A stretch of 64,000 bases of DNA from Deltaproteobacteria bacterium (GTDB lineage Bacteria > Desulfobacterota > Desulfobulbia > Desulfobulbales > Desulfurivibrionaceae). The position numbers were made by a program, and so were the translations under genes. Under the pieces are notes generated by a model, which worked only from the letters and a program-made list of their open reading frames with translations, was not told where the DNA came from and did no database searches. This document shows positions 204-40,416 of the stretch, piece by piece. The stretch is from positions 1 through 64,000 of the forward strand of contig JAJZRJ010000010.1 in assembly GCA_021802775.1 (NCBI GenBank), given 5' to 3'. Each line of letters begins with the position of its first letter. Position 1 is the stretch's first letter.

Positions 204-1385
204 ATGACCGGACAGCCCTTTACCGTCACCCAGCCGACCCGTATCCGCTTCGGCGTCAACACCATCAACGACCTGCCCACCATGGTAAAGGATCTGGGCG
301 GCGAGAAGGTTTTTCTCGTGGTCGACCCCGGGCTGGCGGCCACCGGCCTTCTGGAGCGCATCGTGGCGCCGCTCAAGACGGCGAAGGTACCTTTTGAGCT
401 GTACGACAAGATAGACCCGGAACCGGGGCTCAAGCTGGCCGACCAGGGCGCGGCCCTGGCCAAGAGGGCCAAGTGCGACTGCGTGGTCGGTGTGGGCGGC
501 GGTTCGGCCATGGACGTGGCCAAGGCCGTGAGCATTCTCCTCACCAACGGCGGCAAGGCCGAGGATTACCTGGGCCTCGGCAAGATCAAGAAGCCCGGGG
601 TGCCCAAGATCATGGTGCCTACCACCGCCGGCACCGGCGCCGAGGTAACCTTCACCGCGGTCTTCATCAACGAGAAGACCAAATCCAAGGGCGGCATGAA
701 CGGCGACCCGCTCTACCCGGATGCCGCGCTGCTCGACCCGGCGCTCACCGTCTCCATGCCGCCGCGGGTCACCGCCATGACCGGCATCGATGCGCTGATC
801 CACGCCCTGGAGGCCTTTGTCTCCAACCAGGCCCACCCCATTTCCAACATGTACGCCCTGGAGGCCATCGACCTCATCAGCCATAACCTCGGCATGGCGT
901 ATGCCCACGGCGGCAATCTGGAGGCGCGCTCCGCCATGCTCATGGGTAGTCTCCTCGCCGGCAAGGCGCTGGCCACCGCGGGCGTCGGCCTGGTGCACGC
1001 CATGTCCTACCCGCTGGGCGGCATGTTCGGCATTCCGCACGGCCTGGCCAATGCGGTGTTGCTGCCCTATGTCGTGGAATACAATCTGATCGGCGCGCCG
1101 GACAAGTTCGCCGTCATCGCCGAGGTGATGGGCGCCGATGTGGCCGGGATGCCGAACCGGCAAGCAGCCGAAATGGCGGTTGATATGGTGTACCAACTCA
1201 ACCAGGACGTGGGCATTCCCGCCACCCTGGCCGAATTGAAGATTCCGGCCAAGAAGATTCCGGAGATGGCGAGCATCGCCCTCACCGTGACCCGGCCGGT
1301 GGAGAACAACCCGCGCAAGCCGACCCTGCCGGATGTGGTGGCGATTTACGAGACCGCCATGGCCGGCTGGATGCACGAACATTGA
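204..1385 (+). CDS. kdnB: Iron-containing alcohol dehydrogenase, probable Kdo 8-oxidase (KdnB-like)
   Basis: This 393-residue protein belongs to the group III iron alcohol dehydrogenases. It has the NAD-binding signature VGVGGGSAMDVAK, then PTTAGTGAE, and the metal-binding His region ending LGGMFGIPHGLANAV. The ATG at 204 is chosen because AGGA lies just upstream and the family N-terminus begins there; the frame is open further upstream but shows no family similarity. The next gene encodes a KdnA-like aminotransferase. In Shewanella, KdnB oxidises C8 of Kdo and KdnA then transaminates it to give 8-amino-Kdo, a lipopolysaccharide sugar. Membership of the Fe-ADH family is clear from sequence; the specific KdnB role is inferred mainly from the neighbour. 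A general short-chain alcohol dehydrogenase is the alternative. Confidence 0.8.
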   Translation: MTGQPFTVTQPTRIRFGVNTINDLPTMVKDLGGEKVFLVVDPGLAATGLLERIVAPLKTAKVPFELYDKIDPEPGLKLADQGAALAKRAKCDCVVGVGGGSAMDVAKAVSILLTNGGKAEDYLGLGKIKKPGVPKIMVPTTAGTGAEVTFTAVFINEKTKSKGGMNGDPLYPDAALLDPALTVSMPPRVTAMTGIDALIHALEAFVSNQAHPISNMYALEAIDLISHNLGMAYAHGGNLEARSAMLMGSLLAGKALATAGVGLVHAMSYPLGGMFGIPHGLANAVLLPYVVEYNLIGAPDKFAVIAEVMGADVAGMPNRQAAEMAVDMVYQLNQDVGIPATLAELKIPAKKIPEMASIALTVTRPVENNPRKPTLPDVVAIYETAMAGWMHEH

Positions 1386-1477
1386 GCAAGGCAAAAGGCA
1401 AAAAGGGCGGAGAAGCGAAACAAGGAGCGGGTTTACCCGCGAACTTGGGCGCAGACGAGAGTCGAGGAGAGGAAAGC

Positions 1478-2680
1478 ATGCCCGGATTTGAGATATTTGG
1501 CGAGGAAGAGAAAAAAGAGATCAATGAGGTGCTCGACACCGGCGTGCTGTTCCGCTACGAGTTCCCGGACCAGCGCAAGGGAATCTACAAGGTCCGCGAA
1601 TTTGAGGAGAAGTACGCGGCCTACTGTGGTGCGAAATACGGCCAGGCGGTCACTTCGGGCACCGCGGCGCTCAAGGTGGCCTTGGCCGCCCTGGGCGTGG
1701 GGCCGGGGGACGAGGTGATCACCCAGTGCTTTACCTTTGTCGCCACCTGGGAGGCGATCTTCGACGTGGGCGCGGTGCCGGTCTTTGGCGAGATCGACGA
1801 GACCTTGAATCTCGACCCGCATGACCTCGAAAAGAAGATCACCCCGAAGACCAAGGTGATCATCCCGGTCCACATGATGGGCGCTCCGGCCCGCATCCAC
1901 GAGATCAAGGCCATTGCCGACAAGCACGGCATTCCGGTGCTGGAGGATACCGCCCAGGCCGCGGGTGCGAGTTTGAACGGCAAGCGGCTCGGCTCCTTCG
2001 GCCGCTGCGGCACCTTCTCCTTCGACCCGGTGAAGACCATGACCACCGGCGAGGGCGGCATGATCATCACCAATGACGAGAAGCTCTGGCGCGCCATGAG
2101 CGAGTACCACGACCATGGCCACGACCACGTGCAAAACCCCGGCGGCCGGGGCGGCGAGGGCCGGAGCTTCATCGGCTTCAACTATCGGATGATGGAACTC
2201 CAGGGCGCCATCGGTCTCGCCCAGCTCGCCAAGCTCGACGGTATTGTCGCGGCCCAGCAGCAGAACAAGGCGGCGATCAAAAAGCTGGTATCGAAGCTGC
2301 CCGGCGTCACCTTCCGCACCATCCTCGATGAGAAGGGCGACAACGCCTCCTTCCTCGCCTTCTTCCTGCCCACCAAGGAAAAGGCGCAGGCGGTGAACAA
2401 GGTGCTGGGCGAGAACGGTGCCGGCGCGATCTACTTTGCCAACAACACCTGGCACTACTATCCGAAATGGGAACATCTCTTGGCCGGTTCGACGCTGGCC
2501 AAGTCCGGCTGGCCCTTCAACGAGGCGGACGGCCGCCGCCGGGTGGTGTACGATCCGGCCGCCCTGCCGCAGTCCGCCGCCATCATGGACCGCCTGCTGG
2601 TCTACCCGGTACCGGTGAAATTGAGTGACGAGCGACTGGCGCAGATCGGCGCGGCCATCGAGAAGGCTGCGTCTCTGTGA
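1478..2680 (+). CDS. kdnA: DegT/DnrJ-family aminotransferase, probable Kdo8N transaminase (KdnA-like)
   Basis: This is a 400-residue PLP-dependent sugar aminotransferase. The Schiff-base Lys lies in SFDPVKTMTTGEGG, and TSGTAALKVAL is the cofactor phosphate loop. The N-terminus MPGFEIFGEEEK, the DHGHDH segment and the NNTWHYYPKWEH segment resemble the KdnA transaminase that makes 8-amino-3,8-dideoxy-Kdo. The frame is open from a TTG at 1382, but the ATG at 1478 has a strong GAGGAGAGG site and begins exactly at the family N-terminus, so it is preferred. It lies 92 bp after the Fe-ADH gene in the same orientation, consistent with one operon. The protein probably acts in the cytoplasm before Kdo is activated and attached to lipid A. 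The substrate assignment rests on recalled family resemblance. Confidence 0.82.
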   Translation: MPGFEIFGEEEKKEINEVLDTGVLFRYEFPDQRKGIYKVREFEEKYAAYCGAKYGQAVTSGTAALKVALAALGVGPGDEVITQCFTFVATWEAIFDVGAVPVFGEIDETLNLDPHDLEKKITPKTKVIIPVHMMGAPARIHEIKAIADKHGIPVLEDTAQAAGASLNGKRLGSFGRCGTFSFDPVKTMTTGEGGMIITNDEKLWRAMSEYHDHGHDHVQNPGGRGGEGRSFIGFNYRMMELQGAIGLAQLAKLDGIVAAQQQNKAAIKKLVSKLPGVTFRTILDEKGDNASFLAFFLPTKEKAQAVNKVLGENGAGAIYFANNTWHYYPKWEHLLAGSTLAKSGWPFNEADGRRRVVYDPAALPQSAAIMDRLLVYPVPVKLSDERLAQIGAAIEKAASL

Positions 2681-2750
2681 AGAGGCTGGTGTTTACAAAA
2701 AGCGAGGATGGTGAGTTTGATTATTGAAGTCGGTTGGCAATAGTGGAGTT

Positions 2751-3022
2751 TCATGCGTGCTGCCCGCTGACCAGCGGATAGTTTTCCGGATGAAAGATGT
2801 GCTCTCGACATCAAGGTCAACGTCCAGATCGGGCCAGTAGAGGTGGCGGTCGGAAACCAGTTCCACATGAAGGATTTTCCCGACCGGCGCATCCTTGAAC
2901 CACGGGAACAGCTGGAAAGGCAGGAAGGCTTCCTGGTTGTGGACGAACATCCAGATGCCGTGAGCGGAGATGTTCGTGATCTTAACCGACGAAGTGTTGT
3001 TGCCATGCTGTGAGGATTTCAT
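2751..3022 (-). pseudogene. DUF2442 protein, frameshifted near its C-terminus
   Basis: The reverse strand from ATG at 3022 encodes the DUF2442 pattern: ITNISAHGIWMFV, then FLPFQLFPWFKDAPVG and HLYWPDLDVDLDVES. The expected family ending (IFHPENYPLVSGQHA then stop at 2751) is present but in another frame, displaced by an extra AC dinucleotide at about 2797-2801. Read without the shift, the frame runs past the normal end into unrelated sequence. DUF2442 genes often sit beside small toxin-antitoxin loci, and hicBA follows directly. A sequencing error is an alternative explanation, since the remainder is perfectly conserved. Confidence 0.75.
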
Positions 3023-3049
3023 CGGTCTTGCTCTTTTCCCTCATTAAGC

Positions 3050-3265
3050 TTACAGCGCTGCAACAAACTCGTCGGCGGACACCCCGGCCTGTTTCAGTAT
3101 GCCGCTTACCGTGCCAGCTTTCAGTTCACGATGATTGGGAACCACGCAACCGGAAGCGCCGCGCCGAAGCACGATATGACTCCCCCCTTGCCTTGCGACC
3201 ACAAAGCCCAGGCGTTCCAAAGCGCGTACGGCCTCTGCCCCTGACACAACGGGCAGTTTAGGCAT
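3050..3265 (-). CDS. hicA: HicA-type toxin (mRNA interferase)
   Basis: This 71-residue protein has the HicA/YcfA double-stranded-RNA-binding-like fold pattern: LERLGFVVARQGGSHIVLRR followed by VVPNHRELKAGTVSGILKQAG. The GGSH histidine is the usual catalytic residue of HicA RNases, which cleave mRNA when free of antitoxin. The start ATG at 3265 overlaps the end of hicB by 8 bp, so the pair is translationally coupled with the antitoxin gene first. A slightly longer start at 3274 is possible but would deepen the overlap. The C-terminus ADEFVAAL is typical. Confidence 0.88.
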   Translation of the reverse strand: MPKLPVVSGAEAVRALERLGFVVARQGGSHIVLRRGASGCVVPNHRELKAGTVSGILKQAGVSADEFVAAL

Positions 3266-39440: not shown

Positions 39441-39947
39441 TCAGTTGCAACCTTTGCAGGATGAGGGGGCGCAGCCGCCGGTCTGGGGCGAGCAGCCGCA
39501 ACCGCTCGCCGGCCGGCCGATGGACTGGAGGGTGAGGGTGAAGGTGAGGGCCTGGCCAGCCAGGGGGTGGTTGAAATCCACGGTGACCCTGGACTCCGCA
39601 ACCGCCGCCACGGTGGCCGGCACCTGCTGCGGTTTGCCCTCCTGTTCCATGGTGAGACCGAGGACCATGCCGCGGCTTAGTTCCCGCGGGCCGAAGGTGT
39701 CGCGCGGCACCTCGATCACCAGCTCCTCGCGGCGGGGACCGTAGGCCTCTTCTGCTGAAAGGGTGATGATCCTGGTCTCGCCGGTTGCCATGCCGACCAC
39801 CGCCTGCTCGAAGGCGGGCATGACGCTCTGGTCGCCGATCCGGAAGGAAAGCGGGCCGGTCTCTTCGGAAGATTCGAAGGTCTCGCCGTTGGCGAGTTGA
39901 CCGCTGTAAAGGATGGTCACGGTGTCGTTCTGCCGGGCGCGTTGCAT
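39441..39947 (-). CDS. slyD: FKBP-type peptidyl-prolyl isomerase SlyD-like
   Basis: This 168-residue protein has the SlyD layout: a split FKBP domain ([44 protein letters not shown]), an inserted chaperone flap, and [17 protein letters not shown]. The C-terminus is a short Cys-rich metal-binding tail, [20 protein letters not shown], in place of the His-rich tail of E. coli SlyD. SlyD aids folding and nickel delivery to hydrogenase in other bacteria. It leads slyD-thiD-GalT-like on the reverse strand. Confidence 0.92.
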
Positions 39948-40049
39948 GCTCTATAAACTCCTGCTGCGGGTTGGTATCGAAAAGGTCGCGCGAAGCGAAC
40001 CGCTATTATGCCCAAAGTTCGGTGAAAAATCAACCAGATAATGGGGCGG

Positions 40050-40202
40050 AACAGTCCGTTGAAAAACGGGCTGTTGGCACCACAGGGACGTGGTGCCGAA
40101 TTTTGCCGGCCCGAAAGGGCCAAGAAATTCGCGAGGTTGGCCAAAGCGCCTTTGGCCAACGACAGTTGAAAAAGCCAGGGATGGTTTTTTCAACGGACTG
40201 TT
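40050..40202. repeat. 153-bp nested inverted-repeat element
   Basis: The ends are a perfect 17-bp inverted repeat, AACAGTCCGTTGAAAAA (40050-40066) with its complement at 40186-40202. Inside are further stems: AACAG.CCGTT-GAAA-AACGG.CTGTT (40050-40075), GGCACCAC/GTGGTGCC (40076-40097), GGCCC-GAAA-GGGCC inside GAATTT/AAATTC (40098-40130), and GTTGGCCAAA/TTTGGCCAAC (40136-40160). No protein is encoded. The right end supplies the TAA stop of the small membrane protein at 40201. It looks like a MITE or a highly folded RNA. Confidence 0.75.
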
Positions 40203-40416
40203 AGAAGCGGTCGCGGAGGAGCTTGAGGCCGAGAATGAGAAGCGGCAGCAGGTGGAAACAGAGGTCGAAGATGTCCAGCGGCCGCCGCAGCGTGCCGTTT
40301 TTCAGCATGATGAGCTTTTCCGCCACGTGCGGCATGGGGAAGATGGGGGCAATGAGCATGAAGCCCGCGATGAGCAGGAGCAGGGGATAGGAAATCTGGT
40401 CGAGAAAGGCCAACAT
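40201..40416 (-). CDS. Small two-helix membrane protein
   Basis: This 71-residue protein has two hydrophobic segments, YPLLLLIAGFMLIAPIF and DIFDLCFHLLPLLILGLKLL, separated by a short loop (PMPHVAEKLIMLKNGTLRRPL). GAGGT precedes the ATG at 40416, which begins 4 bp after the stop of the larger gene upstream. Function unknown; likely inner membrane. Its stop codon lies in the end of the inverted-repeat element, so the C-terminus may have been altered by insertion. Confidence 0.7.
   Translation of the reverse strand: MLAFLDQISYPLLLLIAGFMLIAPIFPMPHVAEKLIMLKNGTLRRPLDIFDLCFHLLPLLILGLKLLRDRF

Follow-up and report, generated by a model that had tools for sequence, protein, structure and literature searches.

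The window, a 64,000-nucleotide stretch of a deltaproteobacterial contig, carries at positions 40,050 to 40,202 a 153-bp segment in which nearly every base can pair. On one side lies a gene for a SlyD-like FKBP protein with a cysteine-rich C-terminal tail (39441-39947, - strand) and on the other the stop codon of a small membrane protein gene. What is this segment, and why is it so thoroughly folded? A sequence-only reading had offered a MITE, a REP-like site or a folded RNA made from the reverse strand before slyD, and had suspected that insertion truncated the membrane protein.

The perfect 17-bp terminal repeat described by that reading is present (40050-40066 and 40186-40202), and its two stems with GAAA loops are confirmed on the + strand (loops at 40061-40064 and 40113-40116). 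The predicted fold of the 153-bp stretch reaches −83.9 kcal/mol (z −8.3) on the + strand and −74.7 kcal/mol (z −7.9) on the - strand, and for each strand 0 of 200 shuffles were equally stable. Of the nested hairpins that had been proposed, the near-complete pairing stands, and the enclosing 17-bp stem is not the arrangement on the + strand: this strand folds into five side-by-side hairpins, in which each element end pairs with a local partner, and the long end-to-end stem is an alternative fold of the - strand. Pattern search revealed no promoter or terminator inside the element, the sole promoter-like match lying outside it, at 40005-40033.

Features of the window copy and its insertion site, in window coordinates
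Feature	Position	Strand	Basis
Gene for 71-aa small membrane protein, not truncated	40201..40416	-	Homologue comparison
MITE proper, CAG...CTG, 149 bp	40052..40200	+ (strand with better fold)	Aligned copies, flank comparison, 27 BLAST matches
Left terminal inverted repeat CAGTCCGTTGAAAAA; 17 bp including two outer bases	40052..40066	+	Homologous to IS5-family element ends
Right terminal inverted repeat	40186..40200	-	Repeat search
Right target tetramer TTAG; - strand C-TAA is the stop codon of the 71-aa gene	40201..40204		Window sequence
Left target tetramer, now GGAA, no matching duplication	40048..40051		Window sequence
Hairpin 1, GAAA loop, includes left terminal repeat	40050..40075	+	Predicted fold
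Hairpin 2, hexaloop AGGGAC (ANGGAN)	40076..40097	+	Predicted fold, loop comparison
Hairpin 3, GAAA loop	40098..40130	+	Predicted fold
Hairpin 4	40136..40160	+	Predicted fold
Hairpin 5, CA then loop GGGA (A(N)GGA), includes part of right terminal repeat	40165..40194	+	Predicted fold, loop comparison

The element is repeated. Searching its own genome (G000; 2,583,664 bases in 72 contigs), as the sequence-only reading had suggested, gave 27 BLAST matches and at least 37 matches to a covariance model, R1, built from 19 copies out of five genomes (150 of 1302 first-look candidates were scored). Thirteen of the 27 BLAST matches sit at contig ends: the assembly is interrupted by the repeat, and some single copies therefore enter the count twice, as separate pieces. 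The R1 matches include an older subfamily, B, of ∼167 bp with ends CAGGCTG..., the same layout and different stem sequences. Another genome (G033) has 161 exact occurrences of the end TANCAGYCCGTTGAAAAA and 0 of the reversed control. A DNA search placed the element in 7 of 38 genomes, its own included; R1 searches, whose stricter filters make the counts lower bounds, placed it in at least 19 of 257 genomes of the order and at least 15 of 395 genomes sampled from the phylum, where the families carrying it besides its own are f29, f35, f72 and f100. Short (149 to 153 bp), without coding capacity and present in many copies, the element has the characteristics of a MITE; it is multicopy with a conserved fold (see below) and not a single-copy, unconserved structure.

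Altogether 112 copies were collected, four of which (three left-end-only matches from G033 and one degenerate copy from G005) were dropped before consensus building; only the former three were dropped from counts of gene context. Variants of ∼233 bp occur in G033 (L163:3491-3729 and L177:14182-14419), with an extra structured stretch in hairpin 3 and their target duplications kept, and five-hairpin elements with different, CCTTGAAAAA-type ends were seen in two further genomes (L148 in G036 and L151 in G051). End pairs spaced ∼1 kb apart in G033 proved to be separate copies, and a 574-bp end pair with equal flanks in G025 encloses, between eroded ends, a gene with a CBS-like repeat (by eye) and no transposase.

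Aligned copies place the element borders at CAG...CTG, and their flanks record the mode of insertion. Among 80 copies from several genomes with both ends placeable (short, truncated and contig-edge matches left out), 43 have an exact 4-bp target duplication, against a mean of 7.2 and a maximum of 15 in 500 shuffles of the flanks, and duplications of 1 to 3 and 5 to 10 bp are not enriched. The duplicated tetramer is of the type NTAN, mostly YTAR. The outer bases of the 17-bp repeat are part of the target, which therefore contributes the stop codon: a stop codon does lie at the element's end, as the sequence-only reading held, but the element does not supply it. The window copy has TTAG on its right and GGAA on its left, so its own duplication was lost or never present.

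The neighboring gene was not truncated. Homologues of the 71-aa protein, found in 28 of 38 genomes with its own included, are 68 to 75 residues long, and the closest relative (G001, same genus), whose site lacks the element, also encodes 71 aa; its gene ends CTC-TAG, compared with TTC-TAA in the window. The empty site has CTAG at the corresponding stop codon, and the YTAR target of the insertion included the stop codon of the 71-aa gene. With genes called by a simple hexamer script, 32 of 109 copies likewise have a stop codon in their target, 76 lie otherwise outside called genes and 1 lies inside. YTAR sites in 1,178,222 bases of the own genome number 654 in coding sequence, 732 in intergenic sequence and 173 at stop codons, and insertion at stop codons is not significantly enriched over intergenic insertion there (6 to 9 copies; p 0.09). 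Among copies with a nearby gene end, 51 of 84 lie 0 to 30 nt past the stop codon, in both orientations. Relative to genes, 29 copies run with, 31 against, 25 lie between convergent and 15 between divergent genes, 8 lie at edges and 1 is inside; selection of orientation by host genes was rejected on the near equality of copies with and against. One copy (L093:2164-2316, G033:C111) lies in frame within an open reading frame (770-3067), the second half of which resembles adenosylcobinamide amidohydrolase by eye, and would be translated as ∼50 residues.

A likely source of the mobility was found among IS5-family elements. A complete IS (L223:1324-2667) in G216, another genome of the same family with another subfamily than the window copy, is 1344 bp long, has CTAG on both sides and encodes a 360-aa IS5-family transposase scoring 276.1 bits against NF033581 (cutoff, 140). 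Its terminal repeat, CAGGCTGTTGAAAAA, is homologous but not identical to CAG[TC]CCGTTGAAAAA in the MITE, and the IS relatives seen have no sequence in common with the MITE beyond this repeat. NF033581 was matched in 5 of 14 genomes, above the cutoff only in G216, with no match in G000, G010, G025 or G033. A 675-bp remnant in G007 (L203:973-1647) has the ends CAGGCTGTTGAAAAA and CAGGATGTTGAAAAA and transposase pieces weakly matching NF033581; this internally deleted element is a possible step from IS to MITE. In G004, eight contig ends fall at such an IS end sequence, each beside a YTAR tetramer, as expected for a collapsed multicopy IS. Contigs were also scanned with the transposase, the best 80 of 162 relatives being kept and 55 of those 80 loci examined (one with too little flank): CAG stands at both ends in 44 of the 55, 1.25 to 1.4 kb apart and mostly with YTAR-type flanks. 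Among these best 80 of 162, the named carriers of the related IS range from Desulfobulbus elongatus, Desulfosarcina widdelii and several deltaproteobacterial MAGs to members of unrelated phyla. None of the genomes searched yielded a complete IS whose ends match those of subfamily A exactly, so for the window's subfamily we infer the transposase partner.

Other transposase families were rejected as the origin. IS701 has a YTAR target, and its transposase domain PF13546 (DDE_5) was found in 0 of 7 genomes. For IS630, TA is here the center of a 4-bp duplication, and PF13358 (DDE_3), matched in 2 of 5 carrier genomes, is absent from G033, G010 and G025. The MITE interpretation is upheld by the multiple copies, the terminal repeats, the 4-bp target duplications and an IS5-family relative with homologous ends: the element is very probably a non-autonomous transposon of this kind, bearing IS5-family-type ends and mobilized in trans by an NF033581-type transposase of the IS5 family, with insertion at YTAR and a 4-bp duplication. 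Surviving copies lie almost entirely outside genes, and where insertion fell exactly on a stop codon, as it often did, the duplicated target restores it.

Mobility does not exhaust the conservation of the element. When 66 distinct copies are fitted to R1, 96.9% of cells pair, and 40 of 48 pairs have two-sided changes in at least some copies (560 cells, compared with 162 after shuffling; 0 of 500 shuffles as high), a covariation signal that is destroyed by sliding the partners. The R1 alignment is fitted to structure, and raw folds were therefore examined as well: 29 representatives were folded, 15 of them per-genome consensuses and the other 14 single copies, and 27 gave five hairpins, no more and no fewer. 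That distant families retain this layout, despite compensatory changes in the stems, is unusual for a MITE. In Watson-Crick-only folds of the + strand, non-Watson-Crick stem positions of the 15 consensuses comprise 26 GU, 1 AC and 21 others, cells that are not phylogenetically independent and that, in hairpins 1 and 5, are under constraint on the side of the terminal repeat; in helices without terminal repeats, about ten GU and three AC sites are only suggestive. Single-side changes private to copies comprise 134 GU, 128 AC and 244 others. A wobble bias on one strand is therefore present between subfamilies and absent among decaying copies, a pattern that points to a function as a single strand, probably as RNA, while the element spreads. 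During spread the five-hairpin fold of one strand is probably kept; after insertion it decays.

Two of the five loops are also conserved. Of 27 folds, 26 have an A(N)GGA loop in hairpin 2 and 24 have one in hairpin 5, but 0 have one in hairpins 1, 3 or 4. Across 26 representatives, the hairpin 2 core [CT]ANGGANG has a mean pairwise identity of 83%, compared with 56% in the flanking five-base stems. Because R1 was built on subfamily A and served to find the representatives from other families, this loop conservation is partly ascertained; the other three loops vary under the same model. Two GGA loops are present on the forward strand in 24 of 29 representatives; on the reverse strand, 22 of 29 have none and 7 have one. 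Among copies, the hairpin 5 GGA is changed in 6 of 251 cases, the terminal repeats in 45 of 1304 and 89 of 1279, and other unpaired bases in 333 of 2250. A sublineage in G025 (e.g., L198:13250-13404 and L201:14684-14838) has the hairpin 2 loop GATGTCC rather than CATGGAC, as if inverted, and has still spread without this GGA. The + strand is the one with the more stable fold, the wobble bias and the GGA loops, and copies adjoin unrelated genes in both orientations; a reverse-strand RNA before slyD is not supported as proposed.

According to one report, CsrA/RsmE sites have high affinity when an ANGGAX hexaloop sits directly on a stem, whereas A(N)GGAX lacking the N is weaker (PMC4005645). By sequence, hairpin 2 fits the high-affinity form and several hairpins 5 the weaker form. 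Rfam comparison of the window's + strand (a 211-base stretch, 4227 models) gave as best-scoring model RsmW, a CsrA/RsmA-binding RNA, which scored 32.5 bits where the gathering score is 52. RsmW also scored 30.9 bits on L321, below the same threshold, and TD-2 scored 41 bits on L331 and 29.3 bits on L142 (gathering score, 48.7); on L333 and L148, neither was the best match. Over 4.5 kb there was no Rfam match; the weak matches required short stretches, for which filtering is less strict. On L333 a microRNA model had an E value of 0.0004, so such values say little about hairpin-rich DNA. We treat these sub-gathering resemblances as hints. No csrA was detected by tblastn in 1,178,222 of the 2,583,664 bases (46%) of the own genome, and no paper on this element family or on a CsrA-binding MITE was found among open-licence papers. 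In our preferred, though tentative, reading, the forward transcript may adopt a compact RNA fold that exposes two A(N)GGA loops of the CsrA/RsmE type, and the CsrA reading is offered as a testable lead.

The fold could instead be kept for DNA reasons in a plain MITE, as subterminal sites for the transposase or host factors or as cruciforms, with no role for RNA. We give this account some, though limited, credence. The rate of change of the hairpin 5 GGA, near the right end, is as low as that of the terminal repeats, and copies show no orientation bias. However, double-stranded sites leave the excess of GU over AC between subfamilies unexplained, compensation extends to hairpins 3 and 4, which are distant from both ends, and the IS relatives were seen without any MITE sequence beyond the terminal repeat. 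Host tolerance, whereby hairpins keep read-through transcripts compact and harmless with no specific partner, is rather unlikely: it accords with the concentration of copies just past stop codons but does not explain why A(N)GGA is kept in only two of five loops.

Template-switch correction of quasi-palindromes, a mutational process that perfects hairpins without selection, would yield compensated stems, and 116 two-sided Watson-Crick changes were found within genomes. Nevertheless, it would erase GU and AC alike, is weakened by the strand bias and would not preserve loop sequences or the order of five hairpins over families; we consider it improbable. REP/REPIN sequences are short palindromes without target duplication. 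A palindrome of this type, moved by a RAYT transposase, would share with the element its palindromic, extragenic and many-copy nature, but an element of ∼150 bp with 4-bp target duplications and with terminal repeats common to IS5-family elements contradicts it, and the REP-like alternative can practically be set aside.

The element is an IS5-family-type MITE whose multi-hairpin core is conserved and strand-specific, a feature that ordinary MITE biology leaves unexplained. One mobile family, with a likely engine, explains both gene-end hairpins and repeat-broken assemblies in little-studied bacteria. If the RNA reading is true, a transposon is constrained to keep an RNA fold to which a global regulator can bind, which would tie selfish DNA to post-transcriptional control directly and in a testable way. 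A bolder and, in our judgment, doubtful extension would see in the element the bacterial equivalent of a SINE, in which two CsrA/RsmE-type hairpins form a regulatory-RNA-like module that bears IS5-family ends and spread repeatedly through the phylum, spreading lineages being held to the RNA fold as inserted copies decay. Hundreds of copies could then act as a dispersed CsrA sponge.

Among known systems, the IS5-family IS at L223 shares with the MITE a homologous terminal repeat and the 4-bp YTAR duplication but, unlike it, carries a transposase, is 1344 bp long and has no five-hairpin core that we could see. Geobacter uraniireducens has long been classed among deltaproteobacteria. Its Chunjie MITE has terminal and direct repeats, a length of 178 to 235 bp and a mostly intergenic location (PMC10969869). 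By description, both are mostly intergenic MITEs with terminal and direct repeats. Correia elements have TA as their target, and we know of no two-loop GGA layout in them. These Neisseria elements are MITEs of ∼150 to 200 bp, similar in size to the element here and different in their ends, with hairpin transcripts cut by RNase III (PMC10969869). CsrA/RsmA-binding RNAs (RsmW, RsmX and TwoAYGGAY) and TD-2 in Rfam consist, as here, of a row of GGA-loop hairpins, although all scores of the element against the RsmW and TD-2 models are below gathering. The trait held in common with CsrB/RsmZ-type RNAs is the pair of predicted A(N)GGA apical loops that each element presents on its + strand.
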